In this document: positions 3,359 through 16,206 of the stretch, one piece after another
How the letters are laid out: the number at the start of each line of letters is the position of its first letter
Position numbering within the stretch: the first letter of the stretch is position 1
Assembly: GCF_027531815.1 (NCBI RefSeq)
Contig: NZ_JAPZSK010000005.1
Coordinates: forward strand, 124,001 to 188,000
Direction of reading: 5' to 3'
Length of the DNA: 64,000 nt
From: Gemmatimonas sp.
GTDB taxonomy: Bacteria > Gemmatimonadota > Gemmatimonadetes > Gemmatimonadales > Gemmatimonadaceae
Notes under the pieces: model-generated
The model's database searches: none
Told to the model about the DNA's origin: nothing
The model's input: only the letters and a program-made list of their open reading frames with translations
Position numbers and translations under genes: made by a program

Positions 3359-5785
3359 TCAGCCGCCCTCCTCGCCCGCCGACACCGCCGCGTAGTAGCC
3401 GCGATAGGCGTAGGTCCCCTCGCCGTAGCGCTCCAGCCGGTTGTCCACGTCGTTGATCACGGCGCCCAGTATGTTGGCATTCACCGCGTCCAGCTGCCGC
3501 AGTGCCTCGTCGGCCTCGTCGAGGCGCGTTTCCCCGGCGCGCGTGACCACCAGCACGCCGTCGGCAGCCACGCTCATGGCCACCGAATCGGCCACGGCCA
3601 GCAGCGGTGCCGAGTCGAGAATGACCACGTCGTAGACTGCCGCGAGCTCGCGCAACAACGTGCGAAAACGCTGGCTCCCCGCCTGATCGATGAGGTCGGC
3701 GCCAACGGCCCCAGCCGAAATGAGCCACAGCCCCGACACCAGCGTGCTCTGCACGGCGCCAAAGGGAGAGCTGAGGTCCCCCAGCACCTGCTGCAAGCCC
3801 GGGGTGGCGTTGGCCCCCAGCAGCACGTGCAGCCGCCCGGCCACGAAGTCACAGTCGATGAGCAGCACGCGCAGTCGTTGCTGCGCAAAGGAAATGGCGA
3901 GGTTCACACTCACCGAGGTCTTGCCTTCAGCGGGGCGGGTGCTGGTCACCAGCAGGCTCTTGCCGCGTCCACCCAACCCGTACAGCAGCTGCGTGCGCAA
4001 CTGGCGGAACGCTTCCGACTCGCCGCTGCGCAAATCGCGCGCAGCGGCCAGCGCCACCGAGCGGCGGCGTCCCACCTCCGACACCTTGGGGGTGTCGCGG
4101 CGCAGCCAGCGTCGCGTGGCAGCGTGGGGGCCGGTGATGCGCGGAATGGTGCCCAGCAGCGGCACACGCAGCCCGCGCTCCACACTGTTGCGCCCCTTCA
4201 CCGTGCGGTCGAGCGCTTCGCGCAGCACGCCGGCCATGATCCCGAACAGCGCCCCCAGGGCCAGCGCAAACACCACCAGTCGTCCCACCGGAGGGCGCAA
4301 CGGCAGCACGCGCGTGGGCGGCTCCACGATGTCCACCTGCCCCACCGCGGCCGCCTCGGCCACCTGCGCGCGCTGATATTCGGCGCGCAGCCCCGCTGCC
4401 TGCTCACGCAGCGCATCGGCCGACTGCGCCAGCAGCACCTCCTGGGCCTTCGTGACCGGTGCTCCCTGCAGGTCACGCGACAATTCGGTTCGCTGCCTGT
4501 CGAGCGCCGCCAGGCGCAGCAGCAGCCCTTCCTCGTACGCCTGCACCGCGCCGATCAGGCGGCGCTTGGTGCCCTCCACCAGCTGGTCGGCGCGCTGCAC
4601 ATCGGGGTGGCGCGCCGGCAGGCCGCGCGGCCCCGAGGTAATCTCCGAGCGCGCCGCTTCCCGCTGCGACAGCTCGGTGTAGAGTGCCGCGACGGCGGGG
4701 GCGCTCCCCACGGGCGTCCCGGGGAGCGCCAGGAGCGCCCGCGCCCGTACCGCCGGGTCTGGGGAGTCGAACCGTACGCGGAGGTCACCCAGGATTTGCC
4801 GTTCCGCCTGCAGCTCCTGCTGCTTCTGCTCCACCAGGCTGACTTCGGAGCGCCGCGTGGCGATACGCTCATCGCTGCTGAAACCCTGCTGCGTGCTGCG
4901 GAAGGCCCCCTGCTGTCGCTCGGCGCCGGAAAGCTGCGCGTTGACCGCGGCCAACTGCTGCTGCGCGAATTCACGCCGTCGCCGCGCCTGCAGCTGCGCC
5001 GTGGCGGCATCGGCACTCTGGTAGGCCTGCACCAGCGCCCCTAAAGCCTGCAGCGCCACCTGCGGTTCGTCGGCGGTGAAGCGCACGTCGATGAGCGTGG
5101 TCATCTCGCGATCGTTCACGACCAGCTGCGACAGCACACGATCGATGGCCATATCACGCGGCAGAATGAGCAGGCTGCCGCTGGTGACGCCGACCGGCGG
5201 CCGCTCCAGGCGCAGGGTGAGGCCGCGCACGGTGATCGACTTGCCGTACGGGTAGCGAACGGAGTCGTCGGTCACGAACCACGACCCGCCGTCGAAGGCC
5301 AGCTTGAGGATACCGCCGTCGGCGGGATTGCCGGCCACGCCCACATCGTGCACCATCCCCGCCGGCATGCCCTGCGGCAGCACGCGCAGGCCGAGGGGGA
5401 GCGAGTCCACCACCTTGCCGGCCAGCGGGCGGCTGCGGAGAATGGCCACCTGGGTGCGCACCGACTGCGGCGGCGCCGACGAGCCACCGCCGTCGAGGCG
5501 CGTGCCGAGTGACAGGCGACCATCCAGCAGCTGGATGGTCGCAGTCGTCATGTAGCGTGTGGGCTGGCGACTTACCCATCCATACGCCGCGGCACCGGCC
5601 AGCAGCACCCCCAGCACCGGCATCCACCAGTTGCGCAGCAGCAGCCGCAGCACCCCCTTGGGATCGGAGGGGAGTGTGTCGTAGCCACCAGCCTCCGGGC
5701 GCGCACGGGGTGCGCGCAGCGGCGGTACCGGTTCGGCGGTCGAGTGCGGAGCAGGGGTGCGAACGAGCGACGTGCGGGGATTCAT
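3359..5785 (-). CDS. Wzc-type tyrosine autokinase and polysaccharide co-polymerase
   Basis: An 808-residue inner membrane protein that controls polysaccharide chain length and export. The N-terminal Wzz part has a membrane helix near residues 52-70, a long coiled periplasmic region, and a second helix near 505-525 (VVFALALGALFGIMAGVL). The cytoplasmic BY-kinase domain has Walker A TRPAEGKTS near 618, Walker A' LLIDCDFVAG near 642 and Walker B VVILDSAPL near 720. The C-terminus carries a tyrosine cluster (YGEGTYAYRGYY, about 788-799), the usual autophosphorylation tail. It follows the Wza-type gene by six bases, so the pair is probably one transcript with the lasso and dehydratase genes upstream. 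Confidence 0.95.
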   Translation of the reverse strand: MNPRTSLVRTPAPHSTAEPVPPLRAPRARPEAGGYDTLPSDPKGVLRLLLRNWWMPVLGVLLAGAAAYGWVSRQPTRYMTTATIQLLDGRLSLGTRLDGGGSSAPPQSVRTQVAILRSRPLAGKVVDSLPLGLRVLPQGMPAGMVHDVGVAGNPADGGILKLAFDGGSWFVTDDSVRYPYGKSITVRGLTLRLERPPVGVTSGSLLILPRDMAIDRVLSQLVVNDREMTTLIDVRFTADEPQVALQALGALVQAYQSADAATAQLQARRRREFAQQQLAAVNAQLSGAERQQGAFRSTQQGFSSDERIATRRSEVSLVEQKQQELQAERQILGDLRVRFDSPDPAVRARALLALPGTPVGSAPAVAALYTELSQREAARSEITSGPRGLPARHPDVQRADQLVEGTKRRLIGAVQAYEEGLLLRLAALDRQRTELSRDLQGAPVTKAQEVLLAQSADALREQAAGLRAEYQRAQVAEAAAVGQVDIVEPPTRVLPLRPPVGRLVVFALALGALFGIMAGVLREALDRTVKGRNSVERGLRVPLLGTIPRITGPHAATRRWLRRDTPKVSEVGRRRSVALAAARDLRSGESEAFRQLRTQLLYGLGGRGKSLLVTSTRPAEGKTSVSVNLAISFAQQRLRVLLIDCDFVAGRLHVLLGANATPGLQQVLGDLSSPFGAVQSTLVSGLWLISAGAVGADLIDQAGSQRFRTLLRELAAVYDVVILDSAPLLAVADSVAMSVAADGVLVVTRAGETRLDEADEALRQLDAVNANILGAVINDVDNRLERYGEGTYAYRGYYAAVSAGEEGG

Positions 5786-5791
5786 GAGCAG

Positions 5792-6454
5792 TTACGGGAG
5801 TTCACGGCGCGAGAGAATGATCAGGTACGTCGTGACGTACGCGGTGGCGAACCCCGCCGTGATCTGGAGAATCGGGCCGATAACGGACCACAACGACCGT
5901 GTGCTGCGCCGCGGCACCAGAATGCGGTCGCCCGACTGAATGGTGCGCAACGACCGCTCGAGCGAGGCATCCCCCGGGTCGAACTGCCGTTCGCGCCCGC
6001 CGCGCTCCAGCGCCACCTTGCGTTCGTGGCCGGTCATGGTGGGCGAGCCGGCCTTCACCACGGCGTCGGCCACGGTGGTTTCGGGGGGGAGCAGATACAC
6101 CCCGGGGGTGCGCACCTCCCCCGACACCACGATGCGCACGAGCGGCTTGATGTCCACCGCCGGCTCGCGCTGGTAGTCGCTGAGAAACGCGACGATGCGC
6201 GCACGCACACTGTCCAGGGGAATGCCCGCCACTGCTACGCGGTTGAGCAGCGGATGATGCAGCGTGCCGTCGGGCGCCACCTCGAACTCGCCGCTGAAGG
6301 AGGGCGACTCCCACACGGTGAGCTTGATGGCGTCACCGGGGTGCAGCACGAGCGGCGGCGACGCCGCCGGCTGCGCGGCCGCGGGTGTCACCGCCGTTGC
6401 CTGCAGCAGCAACGTCGCCAGCAACGTCACTGGCAGCGTCAATAGCCGAGCCAT
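5792..6454 (-). CDS. Polysaccharide export protein, Wza family (SLBB domain)
   Basis: This protein of about 220 residues is a periplasmic/outer membrane polysaccharide export component. After a signal peptide ending in PAAAQ it has the Poly_export segment (LHPGDAIKLTVWESP, then PDGTLHHPLLNRV) and one SLBB-like segment (VSGEVRTPGVYLLPPETTV). A C-terminal hydrophobic helix (GPILQITAGFATAYVTTYLIIL) replaces the amphipathic helix of Wza. The start at 6454 has AAGG nearby and gives a normal signal peptide. Two more upstream ATGs (6481, 6541) are possible. It partners the Wzc-type kinase directly downstream. Confidence 0.9.
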   Translation of the reverse strand: MARLLTLPVTLLATLLLQATAVTPAAAQPAASPPLVLHPGDAIKLTVWESPSFSGEFEVAPDGTLHHPLLNRVAVAGIPLDSVRARIVAFLSDYQREPAVDIKPLVRIVVSGEVRTPGVYLLPPETTVADAVVKAGSPTMTGHERKVALERGGRERQFDPGDASLERSLRTIQSGDRILVPRRSTRSLWSVIGPILQITAGFATAYVTTYLIILSRRELP

Positions 6455-6559
6455 CGCCCGCCTTGCGGGGCGCGACGACATCGCCGCCGCAGGCAGCAGG
6501 GACGCAATGCGAAAGGCAGCCAGGAAGGAGATTGCCGTCACGATACGGTCAGATTGCGG

Positions 6560-7921
6560 TCAGGATGCCGATGGACGCGAGGCGCCGAACACGGCGCGCG
6601 CATACCGAGCGAACTCACGCCAGCGTGCACGTGCCGGCATACCGTAGGTTGCGGTGGTCGCGTCCGCTCCCTGCAAAGTAGCGCCTTGCGACAGGGCCGC
6701 GAGATCCGGTACGTCCACATCGTGTTCCACGAGCCACGGGCGTGACCCCTTGTGCCCGCTGGTATTCGGGCGCAAGGCCCATTCCCACGCCAGCCGCCGC
6801 AGCCGCACCGAGGGACAGTCGGTGCCCCCCGGAATGAGAATGGCCAGCAGGTGCCGCTCCACCAGGGCGTTTACACTGCGCATGGCGGCCCGCGGCACAC
6901 CCGCCGGCGGCGGGGGCTCGAGCGCCGCCAGCACCGTGGCCGGCACCGGCACTGCAGCCAGCCCCTCGACCAGGCGCAACGCCCAGTAACAGCAGCTGGC
7001 CGCCCGCGCCTCGTGCGCCAGTGCCACGAAGGCCGACCAGCTGAAGGCGGGGTCGGCGGTGATGACCCGCAGATCCCCGGCCGTGCGCCACGTGCCGGTG
7101 CGCAGCATGTGCTGCCACGCCAGGTGAATGCAGGCGTGCAGCGCCATGTGCAGCGCCGAGGGGATGCGCGCCCCGACCAGGTCGGCCCCGAGCGTCTCGC
7201 CGAGCACATCGTCCACGGGGCGTGCATCGCGCCACAGGTCGCTGGCACCAAAGGCAAAGGGGTGCCCCGGGGGAATCACGTCGGTGTGCACCTCCAGGTT
7301 CACTGCCACCCCGGTGGCATCGTGCAGCGCCGGCAGGTGGTGAATACCGCCGGCGGGGAGCTGCACGGTGTCCTCGGCGGCGGGCACCATCCACCCAGTG
7401 CCGCACAGCACGTCGTACGCCTGCGGCGCCTGCGCGGCGGGCACCAGCAGGTCGAGGTCCAGCATGGGGCGCGCGGCAAAGCTGCGATGGTACCAGGCCG
7501 CCACCGCGGCGCCCTTGAGCAGCAGCACCGGAATGCCGGCCTCGTGCAGCGCGCGCACGCTCTGCCCGAGCCGCTGCCGCAGGTGGTGCATGCGGAACTC
7601 CATGACCATGGCCAGCTGCCGCAGCGGCGCCGCGTCTGCCGGCACGGTGCCGCGTTCGGCGCCCGCCAGCACGCGCGACAGCGCGATGACCGCCTTTTCG
7701 CGCTCGGCGGTGTAGCGTAGCGTGCCCCATCCTGCCGGGGTAATGGCGGCCAGCAGCGCGGCCGGCGCCGTGAAGCCCGGCACGGCACTGCCAAAGAGCA
7801 GGCGATGCTCGGGGGCGAGCCGCGCCTGCAGCCGGGCCACGGGGCGGGGCGCCGGCATGGGAGACGCGGCGGCCCACGCCGGCGCGTCAGTACTGCCCAA
7901 GGCTCCCCCGTCGCCGTGCAT
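6560..7921 (-). CDS. Lasso-cluster nucleotidyltransferase (N), NTP_transf_5 type
   Basis: About 453 residues with the core of the uncharacterised nucleotidyltransferase family: VLLLKGAAVAAWY followed by ARPMLDLDLLVP, where the paired Asp residues would bind metal, and a later conserved His-rich stretch (ALHMALHACIHLAW). In other lasso clusters, such as that of pseudomycoidin, proteins of this family act after the HPr-kinase-like enzyme to decorate the phosphorylated C-terminus. That role here is inference from the neighbouring kinase gene. The ATG at 7921 overlaps the permease gene by 35 bases, and an ATG at 7858 is the alternative; neither has a clear ribosome site. Confidence 0.8.
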   Translation of the reverse strand: MHGDGGALGSTDAPAWAAASPMPAPRPVARLQARLAPEHRLLFGSAVPGFTAPAALLAAITPAGWGTLRYTAEREKAVIALSRVLAGAERGTVPADAAPLRQLAMVMEFRMHHLRQRLGQSVRALHEAGIPVLLLKGAAVAAWYHRSFAARPMLDLDLLVPAAQAPQAYDVLCGTGWMVPAAEDTVQLPAGGIHHLPALHDATGVAVNLEVHTDVIPPGHPFAFGASDLWRDARPVDDVLGETLGADLVGARIPSALHMALHACIHLAWQHMLRTGTWRTAGDLRVITADPAFSWSAFVALAHEARAASCCYWALRLVEGLAAVPVPATVLAALEPPPPAGVPRAAMRSVNALVERHLLAILIPGGTDCPSVRLRRLAWEWALRPNTSGHKGSRPWLVEHDVDVPDLAALSQGATLQGADATTATYGMPARARWREFARYARAVFGASRPSAS

Positions 7922-8687
7922 CGCGCAACGTGTAATGCAGCGCCCACCCGCCGGCAGCACAGGTGGCGAAGGCCATGGCCGACAGCACCGCCACGTCGGC
8001 GGCCACGGTGGCAAGGGGGGCGCCGTCCAGCCACAGCCGCCGGGTGGCGCGCAGGCCATAGGTGAGCGGAATGACATCGCTCACGCGTGCCACCCACGAG
8101 GGAATCACGTGCGTGGGGAAGTACACGCCCCCGAGGAGCGATGACACGGTCATGATGCCGCCCAGCAACGGCCCCGACGTGCGAAACGCCACCACCATGG
8201 CCGCCGAGACGAGCCCGATGCCGAAGTACGCCAGCGTTGTGAGCGCCATGACCACCAGCCCCGGCACGAAGTGGCTCCAGACGACGCTCACGCCCAGCAG
8301 CAGGCCGCTCACCACCAGCAGCAGCGCACGCACCCATGCCTGCGCAATGTCGAAGCTCATGAGCCCGGCAAAGACCACCCACGACGGGGTCGGCAGCGAG
8401 AGCATGAGCTCGAGCGTGCCGCTGCCGATTCCGCCGCTCACCGCGGTGGCGGGGGCGCGCATGGCCGCGATGATGAGCGTGGTGGAGAGCACCCCCAGCA
8501 GCGTGAAGGCGAAGAAGTTGCCCCCTTCGCCGGCAATGGCCCCCGCCATGGTGGGCTGCAGCGCATTGGCCACGAAAAAGAGCGGCACCACCGTTACCAG
8601 CAGCGCGCCCAGGGAGAAGAGAAACTGGAGGCGATAGCTGCTGGCCAGAATCCACGAAGCCCGGAACAGGGCGGCAATGACGCTCAT
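7887..8687 (-). CDS. ABC-2 type permease of the lasso cluster
   Basis: A 266-residue integral membrane protein with about six hydrophobic segments, starting SLGALLVTVVPLFFVANAL near residue 25. It carries the ABC-2 permease features: SGGIGSGTLELMLSLPTP in the first cytoplasmic part and SSLLGGVYFPTHVIPSWV before the last helices. It overlaps the ATPase gene by four bases (ATGA), so the two form an exporter. Their position inside the lasso cluster suggests export of the mature peptide. Most lasso clusters use a single-chain exporter (D) instead, so this is a variant. Confidence 0.9.
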   Translation of the reverse strand: MSVIAALFRASWILASSYRLQFLFSLGALLVTVVPLFFVANALQPTMAGAIAGEGGNFFAFTLLGVLSTTLIIAAMRAPATAVSGGIGSGTLELMLSLPTPSWVVFAGLMSFDIAQAWVRALLLVVSGLLLGVSVVWSHFVPGLVVMALTTLAYFGIGLVSAAMVVAFRTSGPLLGGIMTVSSLLGGVYFPTHVIPSWVARVSDVIPLTYGLRATRRLWLDGAPLATVAADVAVLSAMAFATCAAGGWALHYTLRDARRRGSLGQY

Positions 8688-9706
8688 GCGGGTACGGTCT
8701 CACGCATCGGCGCCTCAGCTCCCGCGATCACCCGCTCGATGAGCCCGGCCAGCGACCCGTCGAGTCGTTCGAAGCGCGCGATGGGCACTCCGTGCGTTCC
8801 CAGCAGGGCGAGCACGGCCGCCGCCGCCGTGGGACCATTGGGCAGCGACACGCGCACACAGCACCACCCGTCGATCCTCTCTCCCTCGCGCACGCCGTGC
8901 GCGAGCCCCTGCGTCTCGAGGAGGGCAAAGGCCGCGTGCTGCGGCTGCGTGGTCCACACCCCCATGGTGGCATCGCCAAAGCGTTCGGCCAGCACGGACG
9001 CGCGATCGCTGGCCACGACGCAACCGCGGTGCAGGATGGCGACGCGATCACACCAGTTGAACGCTTCGTCGCCGTCGTGCGTGGCCAGGAGCACGGTGCA
9101 CCCGCGCTGCGCCACGAGCACCTCGCGTACGAGCGCGCGCAGCGACTGCGCGGCCATGGGGTCGAGCCCGCGCGTGGGCTCGTCGAGCAGCAGGACCGCC
9201 GGGCGCCCCAGCAGGGCGCGCGCAATGAGCGCCCGCTGCCGCAAGCCGGTGGAGAGCTGCCCCACTGGCCGATCGGCGTACTCCTGCAACTGCACGTCGG
9301 CCAGCACCTCGTCCACGGCCGCGCGCCGTTCGGCGGTCGCCACGTTCTGCAGCGCCGCATACAGTCGCAGATTTTCCCGCGCCGACAGGCGCCAGTTCAT
9401 CACCCGTTCGTTGGCCAGAACACACCCCACCAGGCGCTGCACGGCGCGCGGTGTGCGCACCACATCGTGACCGTCAACGGTGATGGTGCCCCGATCGGGG
9501 GTGAGATAGGTGCCGAGAATGCGAAAGAGGGTGGACTTGCCGGCCCCGTTGGGGCCGAGCACGCCGAACAGTTCGCCGCGACGCACCTCGAGCGACACCC
9601 CGTCGAGACCGGTCACCCACTCGCCGCGCCCCAGGGGGGCCCGCAGTGTGTCGCGCCACCCGCGGCGCAGCTCGAACCGCTTGGCCACGTCGTGCAGGCT
9701 TACCAT
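8684..9706 (-). CDS. ABC transporter ATP-binding protein of the lasso cluster
   Basis: A 340-residue ATPase with Walker A GPNGAGKST, signature LSTGLRQRALIARALL, Walker B LLLDEPTRGLDP and H-loop LLATHDGDE. It has a C-terminal extension of about 100 residues beyond the ATPase core, as in NodI/DrrA-like proteins of ABC-2 exporters. It overlaps the kinase gene upstream by seven bases and the permease gene downstream by four. The start at 9706 matches the family N-terminus (VSLHDVAKRFELR). It powers the adjacent permease, probably for lasso peptide export and self-protection. Confidence 0.93.
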   Translation of the reverse strand: MVSLHDVAKRFELRRGWRDTLRAPLGRGEWVTGLDGVSLEVRRGELFGVLGPNGAGKSTLFRILGTYLTPDRGTITVDGHDVVRTPRAVQRLVGCVLANERVMNWRLSARENLRLYAALQNVATAERRAAVDEVLADVQLQEYADRPVGQLSTGLRQRALIARALLGRPAVLLLDEPTRGLDPMAAQSLRALVREVLVAQRGCTVLLATHDGDEAFNWCDRVAILHRGCVVASDRASVLAERFGDATMGVWTTQPQHAAFALLETQGLAHGVREGERIDGWCCVRVSLPNGPTAAAAVLALLGTHGVPIARFERLDGSLAGLIERVIAGAEAPMRETVPA

Positions 9707-10626
9707 GGGTGCCACGCGCGCACGGTGTTGATGACCTCCGGCAAACGCGAGAGGTCCCGCGCCACCGACAGGGTGTACGACGGGACCTTGGAGACCAGCG
9801 CCAACGTGCCAAGAAACTGGCGGTTGGCCTCGGCGCCACCCAGCAGGTCTCCCAGCTTGCCGTGCTGCTGCAGCTGCACCGCGGCCGCCATGGGCGCGAG
9901 GCAATCGCGTGTGACCGCCTGTTCGGCGTGCGCCGGGGCGGGCGCGATGAGATACACCGCATCCACGGGGGTCCCCGCATGCAGCGGCAGGTGCGACGGC
10001 ATCACGTCGACGGACAACTTGCCGTCGATGGTGGGCGTGGCCGTGGCCCACGCGGCCCCGGCGGCCGCGAACGCATCGGCACGCACGCGCAGCGCCATGC
10101 TGCCGGCAAAGGCCACGGGCACCGGGTCCACCTGCACCGCCACCGCATCATCGCCAATGAGGGTGGCCCCATGTGCCACCAGCGCCGCGGCGAGACTCGA
10201 CTTGCCGGTGCCCTTTACCGCGGCAAAGAGCACGGCCCGGTTGCCCACACGCACGGCGCTCGCGTGCAGACACAGGTCGCCCGCGTCGTGCACCAGCAGG
10301 GGCAACAGGCGCCCCACCAGGTCGAGACGCACAGACTCGTCGTCCAGCGTGTCTGGCACATCGCAGGCAATGATGCGGCGCGCCCGGTCCAGTTCGTACT
10401 GGCCACTGCAGGCATGTTCGAAGCGCCACGTGGCCCCGTGGCGCCACAGCTGCAGGTTGCAGGGCTGGTAGGGGTCGGCGCCGACCAGCGTGAATGCGGC
10501 ATCGCGCGGTGCGAGCGCCTGTCGCACGACCTGCACGTCGACGTCATCCGGCGCCGCCTGCACGGGGAGTGTAGCCACCGGAAAATCGGAGCGCACCCGG
10601 CGTCCGAAGGCAAAGTAGTGATACAT
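9700..10626 (-). CDS. HPr-kinase-like lasso peptide kinase (K)
   Basis: A 308-residue protein resembling the kinase domain of HPr kinase/phosphorylase. It has HASAV near residue 121, Walker A AVKGTGKSSLAAAL near 137-149, and the LIGDDAVAV strand shortly after. Enzymes of this type in lasso clusters, characterised for paeninodin, phosphorylate the C-terminal Ser of the precursor. The precursor encoded just upstream ends in Ser, which fits. The HPr-specific phosphorylase features are not obvious. The start at 10626 follows a strong hairpin after the precursor gene, and the end overlaps the ATPase gene. Confidence 0.88.
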   Translation of the reverse strand: MYHYFAFGRRVRSDFPVATLPVQAAPDDVDVQVVRQALAPRDAAFTLVGADPYQPCNLQLWRHGATWRFEHACSGQYELDRARRIIACDVPDTLDDESVRLDLVGRLLPLLVHDAGDLCLHASAVRVGNRAVLFAAVKGTGKSSLAAALVAHGATLIGDDAVAVQVDPVPVAFAGSMALRVRADAFAAAGAAWATATPTIDGKLSVDVMPSHLPLHAGTPVDAVYLIAPAPAHAEQAVTRDCLAPMAAAVQLQQHGKLGDLLGGAEANRQFLGTLALVSKVPSYTLSVARDLSRLPEVINTVRAWHPW

Positions 10627-10641
10627 GGGGAACCGACGAAT

Positions 10642-10669
10642 CCGGGAAGGCACCGAAGTGCCTTCCCGG
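10642..10669 (-). terminator. cUUCGg-capped hairpin after the lasso precursor gene
   Basis: A perfect 12-bp stem (CCGGGAAGGCAC / GTGCCTTCCCGG) closes on a TTCG loop on the transcribed strand, giving the exceptionally stable C(UUCG)G tetraloop. It lies eight bases after the precursor stop and 16 before the kinase start. No U-run follows, so it may stabilise or partly stop the precursor transcript and raise precursor level over the downstream enzymes. That function is inference. Confidence 0.7.
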
Positions 10670-10676
10670 TCGTCAC

Positions 10677-10826
10677 TCAGCTCGTCTTGCAGCTGAAGCT
10701 GCCGCCAGTCGGTGTGCAACCCGGTGCTGCCGGGTTGGTTCCGAAGGTGTCAGTGCCAGACGTACCGCCGGCAAGCGTGAGCTCGCGCAGCGTACCGAAC
10801 CGTTCCAGCCGTGGTGCGTTGTACAT
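10677..10826 (-). CDS. Lasso peptide precursor (A)
   Basis: A 49-residue peptide. The leader fits the lasso consensus YxxPxLxxxGxxxxxT exactly: Y2, P5, L7, G11 and T17. With Thr at position -2, cleavage after L18 gives a 31-residue core that starts AGGTSGTD. Ala1 and Asp8 would form an eight-residue macrolactam ring. A Gly1/Asp7 ring is the alternative. The tail is long and Gly/Thr/Ser/Pro-rich with two Cys (core 19 and 28), and ends KTS. The ATG at 10826 has AAAGGA seven bases upstream. Unusually, the gene lies after the cyclase gene and before the kinase gene. Confidence 0.9.
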   Translation of the reverse strand: MYNAPRLERFGTLRELTLAGGTSGTDTFGTNPAAPGCTPTGGSFSCKTS

Positions 10827-10908: not shown

Positions 10909-12915
10909 TCAGGAAAGCGCACCTTCGCAGTGCGCGTGGGAGTGGCCGATCAGCACGCCAGCGACCTGGCTACCCGCCGATACAGGCTCCGTCATCACCC
11001 CGCGGGCGGAGCGCGAGTCCCTCCGCAGGAACCACTCAACCTGTGCCGTACGCAGCAGCGCCTCGCACAGCCCGGGAGTAGCCCTGCCTGCTTCCGCCTG
11101 CGCAATGTGCAGAGTCAGGGAAGAACGATCAAGGAGACCAAGATCCGCGAGGCGCAGGTCGGTGCCGCACTGCCGCAACCACGCTGCCGCCCCCGCCGCC
11201 GACTGCTCCAGCCGCGTTCCCAGGGTGCCGGTGCGCTCCGCGCGCCGCGCCAGCAGCGCCGGCGGCAGGAACGGGCGCATCGCCCCGCGCAACAGCAGCT
11301 TGGTGTCGCCGTCGGCATACCGCTCGCTGTGATGCCCCTGGGCCATGAAGCGCACCACGCGCAGGTCGTGGAAGGGCGAACGCGCCTCCACACCGAGTGC
11401 ATGCACGGCACCATGCATGACCGCGGCCAGACGCGGGAACCCCTGATTCTCGAAGTACCAGCGAAACTCGGCGTGGGCCGCACCATGCCGCTGCACGTCG
11501 GGCACCCATTCGGGCGCCCGTGTGTCCAGCGCCAGTGTGGCGGTGGTTGGCGTACGCAGCCACGGTGGCACCAGCCGTTCGAACAGCCCCATGAACCGGC
11601 GTCCGCGCAGGCGCCCCAGCCCACGTAGCACTGCCGGCGGCAGCGCCGGTTCCACGGCGTACTTCCAGAACCAGGTGGCGGGCTGTGTGTGAATGCCGAA
11701 GGCCCGCCACTCACGCCATACGGCCGACAGCCGCCCGCGGCGCAGCAAGTCGGAGAGAAACCACGGCGCGCACTGGAAGAGAAAGTCGCCGGCGTGGCCA
11801 TGCAGCGCCACGCGGCTTTCGACCGCACGCGTCCCGTGCGCCAGCAGCTCGAGCGCCGCCGCGTGCAGATGCACGTGCGACTCCTCGCGGCCGGCGGCAT
11901 CGAATCGCGGCGCGGGAGGAATGGGACCGAGGGCGCTCCCGTCCAGCCAGTGCACCGGCACGCCGAGATGCTGCGCCACCAGAACAATGAGCTCGTCTTC
12001 GCGGCCGCTGTTTCCCTCGGGGTACGACACCGAGACCACGCGATACGTGCGCGCTGGTTGCAGCGACGCCTTCTGCGCCGCCTGATGCAGCATCGCCGCC
12101 ACCGCCGTGCTGTCGTACCCACCGCTCATCCACACCGCGGTCGGCGTGCGCTGCGCCATGCGCTCGCGCACCGCTGCCTCGAGCAGCGTGCCCAACTGTG
12201 CCTCGGCCTCGGCGGCCGGTCGCGGTGCGCCTTCCCGCTCGGGCAGCGTGAACCAGCGGTGGCAGGTGAGCGCCTGCCGTTGCCACAGCTCGGTACTGCC
12301 CGCCTCTACCTGACGAATGGCGCGGTACACCGTGCCGTTGCCCGCCGAGTAGAGCAGGCCGGCGGCGTCGCTGGCAATGGTGGCGAGGTCGAGATCGGCC
12401 GCACAGTGCGGATGGCCACGCAGCGCCGACACCACCGAGGCATACGCCACCCCGCTCCCCAGCGTGGCGCGATAGAGCGACCGCGTGCCACTGAAATCCC
12501 GCGAGGCCACCAGCTTGCGCTGCCGGCGATCCCACAGCACGAACGCGAAGTCGCCCTCGAGCAGTTCGGCGCAGTCGTCGCCGAACGCCTCGTACGCCGC
12601 CACGATGCAGTGGCTGGCGGTGGGGCCACCCGGCGTGACGCCCCGAATGGCTAGCCGCCGACGCAGCTCATTCAGGTAGTAGAGCCGCGCGTCGGCCGCC
12701 ACCACCACCTCGTGTCCGTGCACCAGCAGCGCGGGGCCGGAGAAGTCGTCGTCCATCTCCCACGTGGCGCGCTGCACCGCCAGCACCACGCCGTCCTCCT
12801 GCCACTGCTCCACGCGGTCACTGCCACAGGGCGCCATGGCACGCAGCATGTCGCGCACGACCGGCGGCGAAACCGCCGCGGCGTCGTTGGCCACGATGGC
12901 CAGAATCGCGCTCAC
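10909..12915 (-). CDS. Lasso cyclase, asparagine-synthetase-like (C)
   Basis: A 668-residue homologue of class B asparagine synthetase. The N-terminal glutaminase-like domain begins MSAILAIV and has no Cys2 nucleophile, so it cannot use glutamine as asparagine synthetase does. The C-terminal ATP-pyrophosphatase domain has the AMP-forming motif VWMSGGYDSTAVAAML. Lasso cyclases use this domain to adenylate the side chain acid of the ring residue, which is then attacked by the core N-terminus. It overlaps the B2 gene by four bases. The length is within the usual 550-680 range. Confidence 0.95.
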   Translation of the reverse strand: MSAILAIVANDAAAVSPPVVRDMLRAMAPCGSDRVEQWQEDGVVLAVQRATWEMDDDFSGPALLVHGHEVVVAADARLYYLNELRRRLAIRGVTPGGPTASHCIVAAYEAFGDDCAELLEGDFAFVLWDRRQRKLVASRDFSGTRSLYRATLGSGVAYASVVSALRGHPHCAADLDLATIASDAAGLLYSAGNGTVYRAIRQVEAGSTELWQRQALTCHRWFTLPEREGAPRPAAEAEAQLGTLLEAAVRERMAQRTPTAVWMSGGYDSTAVAAMLHQAAQKASLQPARTYRVVSVSYPEGNSGREDELIVLVAQHLGVPVHWLDGSALGPIPPAPRFDAAGREESHVHLHAAALELLAHGTRAVESRVALHGHAGDFLFQCAPWFLSDLLRRGRLSAVWREWRAFGIHTQPATWFWKYAVEPALPPAVLRGLGRLRGRRFMGLFERLVPPWLRTPTTATLALDTRAPEWVPDVQRHGAAHAEFRWYFENQGFPRLAAVMHGAVHALGVEARSPFHDLRVVRFMAQGHHSERYADGDTKLLLRGAMRPFLPPALLARRAERTGTLGTRLEQSAAGAAAWLRQCGTDLRLADLGLLDRSSLTLHIAQAEAGRATPGLCEALLRTAQVEWFLRRDSRSARGVMTEPVSAGSQVAGVLIGHSHAHCEGALS

Positions 12916-13430
12916 GCCACCTCCCGCCGCAGCGCCTGCAGCGCCGCCGTCCCGCCGTCACCGCCGTCACCGCCCTGCAGCGCGCTGCTCCCCAGCGGCG
13001 TCCACTGCTGCTGCACCGAGGGGCGGTCACCCACCACCACGCCGCCCACTTCCACCCATGCGTGCGCCTCGAAGGTGGCCTGCGCGCGCACCCCCACGCG
13101 CACGACGCTCCCCGGCACCCCATTGGCCACCAGCAGCCGATGCAGCGCCATGGAACGCACCAGGCAGGCGCCACGCCACGGGCCATAGCGCTCGGCGCGC
13201 TTGAGTGCCTGCGCCCACCGCTGTGCCTGCGGCACCGCGACCGGTAGCCCGGCGTCAGCCGCTTCACCCGTTGACTCCGCCGTGGCCGACAGCGGCAGCA
13301 GCGCACCCGTTGGCGCCGTGGCCAGATCGCGCCGCGCCACCCGCAGCGCCTGCATGGCCTGCAGCATATCGATCACCGCGCGCGGCGCCGCGAGGGTACG
13401 CAGCACCGTGCCAACGCCGGGGAGCGGCAT
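12912..13430 (-). CDS. Lasso leader peptidase, transglutaminase-like (B2)
   Basis: A 172-residue protein with the transglutaminase-like Cys-His-Asp triad of lasso B proteins: Cys in RGACLVRSMALHRLL, His in FEAHAWVEVGG, and Asp in VVGDRP. B2 cuts the leader off the precursor while B1 holds it. The frame is open far upstream, but the ATG at 13430 lies two bases after the B1 stop and precedes the conserved N-terminus, so it is chosen. It overlaps the cyclase gene by four bases. A low-complexity GGDGGDGG stretch near the C-terminus is unusual. Confidence 0.93.
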   Translation of the reverse strand: MPLPGVGTVLRTLAAPRAVIDMLQAMQALRVARRDLATAPTGALLPLSATAESTGEAADAGLPVAVPQAQRWAQALKRAERYGPWRGACLVRSMALHRLLVANGVPGSVVRVGVRAQATFEAHAWVEVGGVVVGDRPSVQQQWTPLGSSALQGGDGGDGGTAALQALRREVA

Positions 13431-13432
13431 GC

Positions 13433-13741
13433 TCAGGCCGCAGGCTCGGTGGTCGCCAAGCCGGCGGCCACGAGATCGTCCAGCAGCGCGTGCACGTCGG
13501 CGAGCAGCGTGGCCATGGGCGCGTCGGGATACGTGGCCGACAGCTGCGCACACACCGCGCCCACGGTGCGCTGCACCGGCGGCAACAGCGCCCACACCTC
13601 GGCACCCACCGTGTTGAGGCCGAAGTACGTCTCGCTGCGCCCGTCGAAGAGCACCGCGCCCTCGTCCATGCGCTGCACGATCACTCCGGGTGCCGGCGTG
13701 GGCAGTACCCGCACGGCCAGTTCCGTTTCGCGACCACTCAC
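13433..13741 (-). CDS. Lasso recognition protein, PqqD-like (B1)
   Basis: A 102-residue PqqD-family RiPP recognition element with the typical pattern AVLFDGRSETYFGLNTVGAE then VWALL, and the C-terminal helix LLADVHALLDDLVAAGLA. It binds the leader of the precursor and presents it to B2 and the cyclase. The start codon overlaps the stop of the upstream dehydratase gene (ATGA), so the lasso genes are translationally tied to the glycan gene. B1 and B2 being separate is common in lasso clusters. Confidence 0.93.
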   Translation of the reverse strand: MSGRETELAVRVLPTPAPGVIVQRMDEGAVLFDGRSETYFGLNTVGAEVWALLPPVQRTVGAVCAQLSATYPDAPMATLLADVHALLDDLVAAGLATTEPAA

Positions 13742-15756
13742 GGCGATACACCGCTCACCATGTCGGCGCCGCCAAGATCCGCCAGCGGGATCACCAGTGG
13801 CGTACGCGATGCGCGCGGCGCCCGATCGGCCAGTTCGATGCGCGATGGCACGAGCACCAACGGCGGCGCACTGACGGCCGTCGCGACGACCGGCATGAGG
13901 GGGATGGGCATGCCCAGCGACGCCTCCGGCACGAGACGCTGCATGACCTGCCGGATTCCTGCCGCATCATCGCGCTCGGCCATCACCGCCAGCTCGTCGA
14001 GTCCCAGATGCAGCCGGGGCCCGGCCAGTCCTTCGGTGCGCAGCATGCGAATCTGCTGCACCGACGTGGGCGTGCCCTCCTCGAACAGCGCCATGAGATC
14101 TTCGTTGAGCTTCTCGCCAGGGCGCAGACCGGTGAAGGTGATGCCTACGTCGGTGTACGGCACGCGCCCGGCCAGCCGAATGAGCTGCTCGGCCAGATCG
14201 AGAATGCGCACCGGCTCGCCCATGTCGAGCATGGTGATGCGATCGCTCGCCTCGGGAAGCGCCGCGGCCTGCAGCACGAGCTCCACCGCCTCGGGGATGG
14301 TCATGAAGTAGCGGCGCACATCCGGGTGCGTCACGGTGAGCGGCCCGCCGGCGGCCAGCTGCCGCTGAAAAAGCGGCACCACGCTCCCCGCCGAGCCCAG
14401 CACGTTGCCGAAGCGCACGGCCCGGAAGTCGGTGCCATGCCCGCGCACCTCCGGATGCCCCAGCACCACCAGTTCGGCGAGCCGCTTGGAGGCGCCCATG
14501 ACGCTGGTGGGATTCACCGCCTTGTCCGTGGAGATGAGCACGAACTTGCGCGCCCCGGTGCGCACCGCGGCCATGGCCACATGCAGCGTGCCCAGCACGT
14601 TGTTGCGTACCGCTTCGCCGGGGTGCTCCTCCATGAGCGGGACATGCTTGTAGGCGGCGGTGTGGAACACGACCGTCGGCCGATAGGCCTCGAACAGCTG
14701 CTGGACGCGGGTCACGTCGGCGATGTCGCCAAGCAGGGCGTGCACCTCGAGCGACGGGAAGGCGCGCGCGAGCTCGTGTTCAAGGAAGTACAGCGGCGAC
14801 TCGGCCTGGTCGAGCAGCACGAGGCGTCGCGGCGCAAAGCCCGCCACCTGACGCGCGAGCTCCGCGCCGATGGAACCGGCGGCCCCTGTGACCAGTACCA
14901 CGGCGCCGGTGAGATCGCGCTCCACGTCCGTCGGGGCCAGTTGCACCGGGCGGCGACCGAGCACGTCCTCGATGCACACCTCGCGCACCTCGCCCACCTT
15001 GGCGCGTCCAGCGAGGATTTCGCGCAGCGTGGGGATGGCCTTGAACTCGCAGCCGCTGCGCTCGCACTGGTCGATGATTTCGCGCATGAGGGGGCCCGAC
15101 ACCTCGGAGAGGGCGATCACCACCAGCTCCGCTCCCACGCGCTGCACCAGCGCGGGCAGGTCACGCAGCGCACCCACCACCGGTACCCCGTGAATGGCCA
15201 GCGCGCCGAACACCGGCTGCAGCGTCACGAGCCCTGCCGCCTGCAGGTTTCCCTCGCCGTCCCGCTGGCACTGGCGCACGAACCGCTCGGCGGCGTCGTC
15301 GTCGCCAATCACGAGCACCTTACGCCGGGCCGCTCCGTGATGCTCGGCGCGACGCCGCTCGTGCAGCAGGCGCGCGCCCACCCGCGCCGAGCCGGCGAGG
15401 CCGAAGAAGAACACCGCCTCGAGCACGAAGATGGAGCGCGGCATGCCGATGGCGGCGCCCAGCAGCAGCACGGCCATGATGGTGAAGCCGCTGCCGAGGG
15501 CGGTGGCGCGGGCCAGCATCATGGCATCGCGCACGCCCGCATGCCGCCAGGAGCCGCGGAAGACACCCATCCACATGAGCACCAGCAGGCGACCGCCCAG
15601 CAGCGCGGGGCCCACGACCCACAGACGCGCCAGCTCCTCGGCGGGGACCGCGAAATCGAAGCGCACCACGTACGCCAGCACCAGCGCCAACGCCGCGGCC
15701 CCGAGGTGCAGAGTCGCGATGAGGAGGGTGCGATGACGCAGTGGGCGAGAGGGCAC
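13738..15756 (-). CDS. Membrane nucleotide-sugar 4,6-dehydratase, PglF/CapD-like
   Basis: About 672 residues. The N-terminal part has about four membrane helices, followed by a Rossmann-like CoA-binding-type domain (KVLVIGDDDAAERFV) and a short-chain dehydratase domain with VLVTGAAGSIGAELARQV. The catalytic region reads STDKAVNPTSVMGASKR, with the Met-Lys arrangement of the WbpM/PglF/CapD group. These enzymes make a 4-keto-6-deoxy sugar from UDP-GlcNAc, the substrate for an aminotransferase like the one at 1526. The frame is open to a TTG at 15885; the GTG at 15756 places the first helix at a normal distance and is preferred without strong ribosome-site support. Confidence 0.9.
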   Translation of the reverse strand: MPSRPLRHRTLLIATLHLGAAALALVLAYVVRFDFAVPAEELARLWVVGPALLGGRLLVLMWMGVFRGSWRHAGVRDAMMLARATALGSGFTIMAVLLLGAAIGMPRSIFVLEAVFFFGLAGSARVGARLLHERRRAEHHGAARRKVLVIGDDDAAERFVRQCQRDGEGNLQAAGLVTLQPVFGALAIHGVPVVGALRDLPALVQRVGAELVVIALSEVSGPLMREIIDQCERSGCEFKAIPTLREILAGRAKVGEVREVCIEDVLGRRPVQLAPTDVERDLTGAVVLVTGAAGSIGAELARQVAGFAPRRLVLLDQAESPLYFLEHELARAFPSLEVHALLGDIADVTRVQQLFEAYRPTVVFHTAAYKHVPLMEEHPGEAVRNNVLGTLHVAMAAVRTGARKFVLISTDKAVNPTSVMGASKRLAELVVLGHPEVRGHGTDFRAVRFGNVLGSAGSVVPLFQRQLAAGGPLTVTHPDVRRYFMTIPEAVELVLQAAALPEASDRITMLDMGEPVRILDLAEQLIRLAGRVPYTDVGITFTGLRPGEKLNEDLMALFEEGTPTSVQQIRMLRTEGLAGPRLHLGLDELAVMAERDDAAGIRQVMQRLVPEASLGMPIPLMPVVATAVSAPPLVLVPSRIELADRAPRASRTPLVIPLADLGGADMVSGVSP

Positions 15757-16206
15757 TGGGATCAGGACGTCGGGAACGGGGGGCCGCCACCCGCGCGGGC
15801 AGCACCGAGAATCGGGAGACCTCGCCGTTGGACAGACGGTGAGCCATCGCACAGGGCGACCGGATGAGCACGACACCCGGAGCAATGACTATGCCGAACG
15901 GGGATCGTGCCGCATCCACCCATGTGGAGTGGGGGGTGCTCGCCGGATTCCGCAGCCGGCGCCGCGGTGCAGGTTAGCTGCGCGGCTCGCGATTCCCAAC
16001 AACCGCTTTGAAACGAACACGTTGCACGTTCATTCCTGACACAGGGAAAGCCCGCGACGGCGATTCGCTGCGTAACCGGACTTCGAGCAATCTCGGCAAC
16101 CGTTGCGCGCTCACTACGACATTGTCGCTTGAGCGCAACAGCTGGTTGCGACCCGATCTAGATGGGTGGTCGCGGCTGGCTGGTCTCCGGATCCTACAAC
16201 GGCGAG
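15757..16206. other. Intergenic region before the glycan/lasso operon
   Basis: I see no gene here. A hairpin CGCAAC-AGCTG-GTTGCG (16134-16150), extended by GTCGC/GCGAC arms, lies 57 bases after the chelatase stop and could end that transcript. The rest should hold the promoter of the dehydratase-lasso operon, but I cannot point to a convincing -35/-10 pair. Confidence 0.4.

Follow-up and report, generated by a model that had tools for sequence, protein, structure and literature searches.

Genes and features of the locus

The window analysed here, a 64-kb stretch of Gemmatimonas DNA, carries a lasso peptide locus on its minus strand, in the order PglF-like dehydratase, B1, B2, C, A, K, ABC ATPase, ABC-2 permease, nucleotidyltransferase, polysaccharide export protein and Wzc-like protein. 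Its features are listed below.

13738..15885, minus strand: flanking polysaccharide-biosynthesis (PglF/CapD-like) dehydratase (PF02719; near identity only in one relative)
13433..13741, minus strand: B1, PqqD-like leader-binding protein (RRE) (PF05402; lasso PqqD models)
12912..13430, minus strand: B2, transglutaminase-like leader peptidase (NF033537 over cut-off)
10909..12915, minus strand: C, asparagine-synthetase-like macrolactam cyclase (PF00733; NF033535 below cut-off)
10677..10826, minus strand: A, lasso precursor gene, 49 codons plus stop (translation; NF033521 over cut-off; 47/49 residues identical in relative L032)
10773..10826, minus strand: predicted leader MYNAPRLERFGTLRELTL, with T17 at -2 (motif and model; cleavage site placed by the Thr(-2) rule)
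10680..10772, minus strand: predicted core AGGTSGTDTFGTNPAAPGCTPTGGSFSCKTS, 31 residues, in the register that this cleavage site would give
10749..10751, minus strand: Asp26 (core Asp8), predicted lactam acceptor (sole acid of the core; family conservation)
10716..10718, minus strand: Cys37 (core Cys19), in the tail (translation; pair conserved)
10689..10691, minus strand: Cys46 (core Cys28), in the tail (translation; pair conserved)
10680..10682, minus strand: Ser49 (core Ser31), C-terminal, predicted kinase target (terminal Ser in 46/56 family cores)
10634..10675, minus strand: very stable RNA hairpin directly 3' of the precursor stop and before K, with no T run (-32.8 kcal/mol, z -5.75)
9700..10626, minus strand: K, HPr-kinase-like tailoring kinase (PF07475 at E 7e-6, below the Pfam cut-off; profile; His-Lys-Asp-Asp; AlphaFold)
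8684..9706, minus strand: ABC exporter ATP-binding protein, start approximate (PF00005; DrrA-like)
7887..8687, minus strand: ABC-2 permease (PF01061)
6560..8077, minus strand: nucleotidyltransferase, NTP_transf_5 (PF14907; invariant DxD; structure model; weak ANT(2'')/LnuA fold matches)
3359..6541, minus strand: flanking polysaccharide export protein (Poly_export) and Wzc-like protein (same order in L032)

Among the maturation genes, B2 scores above the curated lasso cut-off, while B1, C and K are clear homologues that fall under the cut-offs of the existing lasso and kinase models. The PglF-like dehydratase was considered as a pathway member since its end overlaps the start of B1, and was set aside because the mapped lasso loci lack it outside one relative; its homologues in other genomes of the genus are 36-48% identical and occur without a lasso C gene. 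The lasso genes thus described sit between polysaccharide biosynthesis and export genes, and they occupy the same place in the sole relative within the genus that has them.

The precursor gene

The minus-strand translation of positions 10677-10826 reads MYNAPRLERFGTLRELTLAGGTSGTDTFGTNPAAPGCTPTGGSFSCKTS followed by a stop, with Y2, P5, L7, G11, T17, D26, C37, C46 and S49 all at the positions originally reported. The strict motif YxxPxLxxxGxxxxxT matches once across the six frames of the window, where codon-shuffled windows average 0.03 matches. The NCBIfam lasso leader model, NF033521, gives the precursor 23.4 bits against a cut-off of 19, and in the 4.3 Mb genome it matches the precursor gene only. 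The sequence AAAGGA lies a few bases 5' of the ATG. With a leader that combines YxxPxL and Thr at -2, and with adjacent B1, B2 and C maturation genes, the locus has the hallmarks of a lasso system, and the gene almost certainly encodes a lasso peptide precursor; the leader model match and the presence of B1, B2 and C in the same operon bear out the identity first proposed for it.

Relatives were collected by a precursor search of 395 Gemmatimonadota genomes, by a kinase profile search of the same phylum, and by a cyclase profile search of one genome per species across 84,980 species. The searches gave about 170 loci (the collections overlap), in each of which we looked for the genes of B1, B2, C, K, the ATPase, the permease, the nucleotidyltransferase and the precursors; the loose leader-pattern frames at L203 and L212 were judged spurious and left out. 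Gene content is largely shared, in that the 24 kinase loci with long flanks include C in 22, B1 in 21, B2 in 19, the ATPase in 21, the permease in 21 and the nucleotidyltransferase in 20. A maximum-likelihood tree of 74 kinases resolved two groups with 99% SH-aLRT support, and the family statistics below refer to the 56 distinct cores encoded beside the clade to which the kinase of the window belongs, unless stated otherwise.

The cysteine pair

Cys19 and Cys28 both lie after Asp8 and hence in the tail, as had been predicted, and the core has exactly one Cys pair with both members in the tail, the arrangement of Cys that class IV calls for. Across the family, cysteines come in characteristic numbers: 41 cores have two, eight have three, seven have none and not one has a single Cys. 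When residues were shuffled among these cores, single-Cys cores averaged 15.8 with a minimum of 5, and two-Cys cores averaged 15.1 with a maximum of 28. Two Cys are still present in 26 of the 32 cores that remain once those 55% identical are clustered, against a mean of 8.8 and a maximum of 18 in shuffles. Because loci found through their precursors could bias the Cys and Ser counts, we repeated them with only those loci that the C and K searches had found, where 46 cores include 30 with two Cys, eight with three, eight with none and none with one.

These numbers bear on whether the cysteines are joined. A class-II-like product, in which both Cys stay reduced, bind a metal or link two molecules, would fit an operon that has no oxidoreductase (domain annotation of the operon and flanks revealed no thiol oxidase or oxidoreductase beside the lasso cluster) and Cys positions that vary among relatives. 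We consider such a product unlikely, since pairing within the molecule predicts the observed lack of any family core with exactly one Cys, the tail disulfides of class IV clusters appear to form without dedicated enzymes (PMC9266682), and export is probably to an oxidising space. From the pattern of the sequences, a tail disulfide in the exported product is therefore the likely outcome.

The topology of the pair differs among relatives. A tail-tail pair occurs in 17 of 34 clustered cores and a ring-tail pair in nine, in a count that still contained two spurious frames; the class-IV-like arrangement is thus that of about half of the family, and the class-III-like that of about a quarter. Since roughly a quarter of the clustered cores place one Cys in the ring and some have a third Cys, no single disulfide topology holds for the whole family. 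The original prediction had described the tail-internal topology as rarely seen, which does not apply here, as tail-tail is the commonest pattern, seen in one of every two clustered cores from loci of this kinase clade. One subfamily (L046, L050, L065, L067 and L071) has three tail Cys, the sole odd count in the kinase clade of the window.

Ring and cleavage register

Asp8 is the sole acidic residue of the core and falls within the span, core positions 7-9, where lasso peptides have their acceptor Asp or Glu; the ring can thus close only at this residue, which supports the closure on D26 proposed at the outset. The family agrees in large part, with Asp at core 8 in 40 of the 56 cores and at core 9 in seven. 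The leader residue that is recognised in characterised lasso systems is the penultimate Thr (PMC7549694, PMC10368454), and with Thr at -2 the ring is very probably the eight-residue Ala1-Asp8.

The register could be shifted by one residue if B2 cut one position later, which would give a seven-residue Gly1-Asp7 ring from the same lasso operon. Gly is present at core 2 in 47 of the 56 cores, where residue 1 is variable (A, I, V, G, L, Q and others), and because Gly2 is the better conserved of the two, a ring starting at Gly retains some probability. We nonetheless regard it as rather improbable, as the leader up to Thr is equally long in all 56 precursors, and Thr would move to -3 in conflict with the penultimate-Thr rule, which favours Ala1 (PMC7549694, PMC10368454). 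For the core as listed, the predicted monoisotopic masses are 2816.20 for the lasso, 2814.19 with the disulfide, 2894.15 with a phosphate in addition, and 3056.21 with phosphate and hexose. Seven-residue lasso rings are rare.

A core of 31 residues had been thought long for the class; it is in fact shorter than the family median of 35 and than the core of pandonodin, at 33. Some relatives have a good leader and a core without Asp or Glu at positions 7-9, namely L053, L059, L060, L066 and L070, which share a IGDDLIPGIGLDC-like stretch, and L061, L074 and L082, with VSLNLGAFAL cores; in these either the cleavage site or the ring chemistry would differ.

The terminal serine and the kinase

Two elements known from kinase-modified lasso systems occur together here: the precursor ends in Ser, and the adjacent K is HPr-kinase-like with a His-Lys-Asp-Asp set. 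The predicted catalytic residues of K (H121, K142, D159 and D160) are invariant in 22 homologues of its group, which bears out the original remark that linked the C-terminal Ser to K-type kinases. K scores below the curated cut-offs of both Pfam and TIGRFAM; its sequence profile picks HPr kinase structures, and its AlphaFold model (pLDDT 89) has a PEPCK-type kinase fold. The nearest Foldseek match was PEP carboxykinase. PEP carboxykinase and HPr kinase have related P-loop kinase folds, and since the sequence profile picks HPr kinase, we did not count this match against the HPr-kinase reading. A plasmid search with K returned no match.

The terminal Ser is a family trait, present in 46 of the 56 cores, in 27 of 32 after clustering at 55% identity, and in 36 of the 46 cores from the C and K searches alone. 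Cores beside the second kinase clade are different: they are short, lack Cys in 24 of 25 cases and end in Ser in only four of 25. On clustered cores the association is significant (Fisher P 3e-5), which ties the terminal Ser to one kinase clade. Members of the second clade (L181-L200, L142, L143 and L163) have cores that end in -RTG, -SRT, -KT, -RTGY or the like in place of Ser.

The known kinases of lasso systems act on the linear precursor and place the phosphate on its C-terminal Ser (PMC8498205), and their His-Lys-Asp-Asp residues are essential (PMC9266682). By analogy with them, Ser49 would very likely receive a phosphate before ring closure. The lasso kinase BsfK, which phosphorylates Ser3 and not the terminal Ser (PMC10368454), sets a precedent for K modifying another residue, and the core offers several Ser and Thr; with Cys also present, K might alternatively phosphorylate Ser or Thr for elimination and thioether formation to Cys. 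Beyond the genus pair, the closest relative by kinase is L033, whose core ends in Thr-Ser-Pro and not in Ser. We judge these alternatives improbable, because the terminal Ser tracks this kinase clade (46/56, against 4/25 with the other clade), and because the operon is without a lyase or lanthionine cyclase domain.

The nucleotidyltransferase

The gene at 6560..8077, which did not feature in the original prediction, encodes a protein that scores 94.8 bits with PF14907 against a cut-off of 31.2. Its LLKGxA...RxMxDxD motif is invariant, including the catalytic Asp pair, and its fold gives weak matches to the antibiotic nucleotidyltransferases ANT(2'') and LnuA. Since the frame shares bases with the permease gene and disorder is predicted for its first 75 residues, the true start is probably later. 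A nucleotidyltransferase alongside K is the combination found in pseudomycoidin, where kinase and nucleotidyltransferase jointly put a phosphate and a hexose on the C-terminal Ser (PMC8498205). On this analogy a further group on the Ser49 phosphate would be expected here too, a prediction to which we give about even odds.

The hairpin after the precursor gene

The hairpin directly downstream of the precursor stop is likewise new to this analysis, and it is kept in the close relative L032. Downstream of the precursors beside the kinase clade of the window, the median folding energy is -30.4 kcal/mol, against -21.2 kcal/mol for random stretches of the same loci (P 3e-14). Across Gemmatimonadota (the window and loci L032-L082), most lasso precursors, orphan ones included, have a very stable hairpin on their 3' side. 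Near the precursor gene we found neither a sigma-70-like promoter nor a T-run terminator, and since the hairpin has no T run we withheld the name of classical terminator; for the same reason, an RNA-stabilising or attenuating element is likelier than a plain terminator. Such an element may raise the level of the precursor message over that of the enzymes.

Relatives and distribution

The closest relative is Gemmatimonas sp. CoA8N_M110 (L032, NZ_JAJTHI010000080.1), which has the same gene order and the same polysaccharide flanks. Its precursor matches at 146 of 150 bases and 47 of 49 residues, with the other lasso proteins at 76-88%, and no other part of the lasso genes proper is as well conserved as the precursor region. 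The two differences, T40A and S45N, are both in the tail. Examining homologues had been proposed as a check on the predicted anatomy, and the outcome does not refute it: CoA8N_M110 retains D26, both Cys and Ser49, and the next relative on the kinase tree, L033, has Asp8 and a tail Cys pair, with a core that ends in Ser-Pro. That the open frame is spurious, or the gene dead, is scarcely credible: the surrounding DNA is very GC-rich and long spurious frames abound in it, but the frame matches the leader model, lies between C and K, and has a counterpart that is 96% identical in amino acids and conserved above its neighbours.

The cluster is patchy within the genus, as the C gene occurs in only two of its 30 genomes, the one analysed here and CoA8N_M110. 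Several precursor genes (L046, L054, L055, L059, L064, L073, L075 and L080) have no adjacent B, C or K, and have housekeeping neighbours where these were checked. Their genomes carry a lasso cluster or kinase on a different contig, and such orphan precursors may be matured in trans. A Pirellulaceae (Planctomycetes) contig, L117, carries a close relative of the C gene and a precursor that ends in Ser and is without Cys, which possibly reflects transfer between phyla.

Discussion

The gene and its operon are present in the window, and Asp8, the Cys pair, the terminal Ser and the hairpin are conserved. We infer leader removal, ring closure and phosphorylation from the functions of the named enzyme families, and combine them in the following scheme. 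While the precursor is still linear, K would phosphorylate its C-terminal Ser49; B1 would hold the leader while B2 cuts after Leu18; and C would close an eight-residue ring between the amine of Ala1 and Asp8, with the tail caught inside. To the phosphate the nucleotidyltransferase would attach a further group, either a sugar or a nucleotide, and export of the product would fall to the ABC-2 transporter. A Cys19-Cys28 disulfide inside the tail would form, probably spontaneously after export, its small loop serving as a plug in a class-IV-like manner, and the hairpin 3' of the precursor gene would let the precursor message outnumber the enzyme message. As one explanation of the whole, we consider this scheme more likely than not. 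The product is likely an exported antagonist or signal, a putative role.

The locus appears to encode a class-IV-like lasso peptide together with a kinase and a nucleotidyltransferase, a combination of the class IV and kinase-modified types, which are known separately. The class IV peptides LP2006, pandonodin and the felipeptins likewise have one Cys pair wholly within the tail and, as here, no clear need of a dedicated disulfide enzyme, and pandonodin also has a long core of 33 residues (PMC9266682, PMC13352647). Their clusters are described as sharing no extra genes beyond A-D (the felipeptins add FilE), whereas the Gemmatimonas cluster adds the kinase and the nucleotidyltransferase; it also differs from them in its ABC-2 type exporter and its Gemmatimonas host. 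The class IV clusters covered in one review contain no kinase (PMC9266682). Paeninodin (PadeK) and the ThcoK/SyanK systems likewise combine an HPr-kinase-like K, with His-Lys-Asp-Asp, and a precursor ending in Ser. Paeninodin is a class II peptide without a disulfide, unlike the Gemmatimonas core with its Cys pair, and its gene order is C A K B1 B2 D, compared to B1 B2 C A K here. In pseudomycoidin, too, a single lasso cluster contains both a kinase (PsmK) and a nucleotidyltransferase (PsmN), a likeness in gene content; this peptide comes from Bacillus, and the sources consulted mention no tail disulfide for it. A search of the open-licence literature, which most subscription papers fall outside, found no paper on such Gemmatimonadota lasso precursors.

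The anatomy first described for the precursor holds, and the nucleotidyltransferase, the hairpin and a phylum-wide family are additions to it. The family is widespread in Gemmatimonadota, most members having a Cys pair and a final Ser that the neighbouring kinase probably modifies. A broader statement, to which we give even weight for and against, is that Gemmatimonadota hold a large lasso family with an internal disulfide (tail-tail, sometimes ring-tail) and a phosphorylated, further decorated C-terminal Ser, in which disulfide and kinase co-occur and some precursors are matured in trans.

Few class IV lasso peptides have been characterised, and none with a kinase according to reviews. The family provides dozens of natural sequences from a phylum with few cultured members, many of which combine a tail that may be plugged with a C terminus open to modification, and its two kinase clades with differing partner cores constitute a natural experiment on kinase specificity. 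It thereby makes testable the roles of the disulfide and the terminal phosphate, and the order in which they are made.
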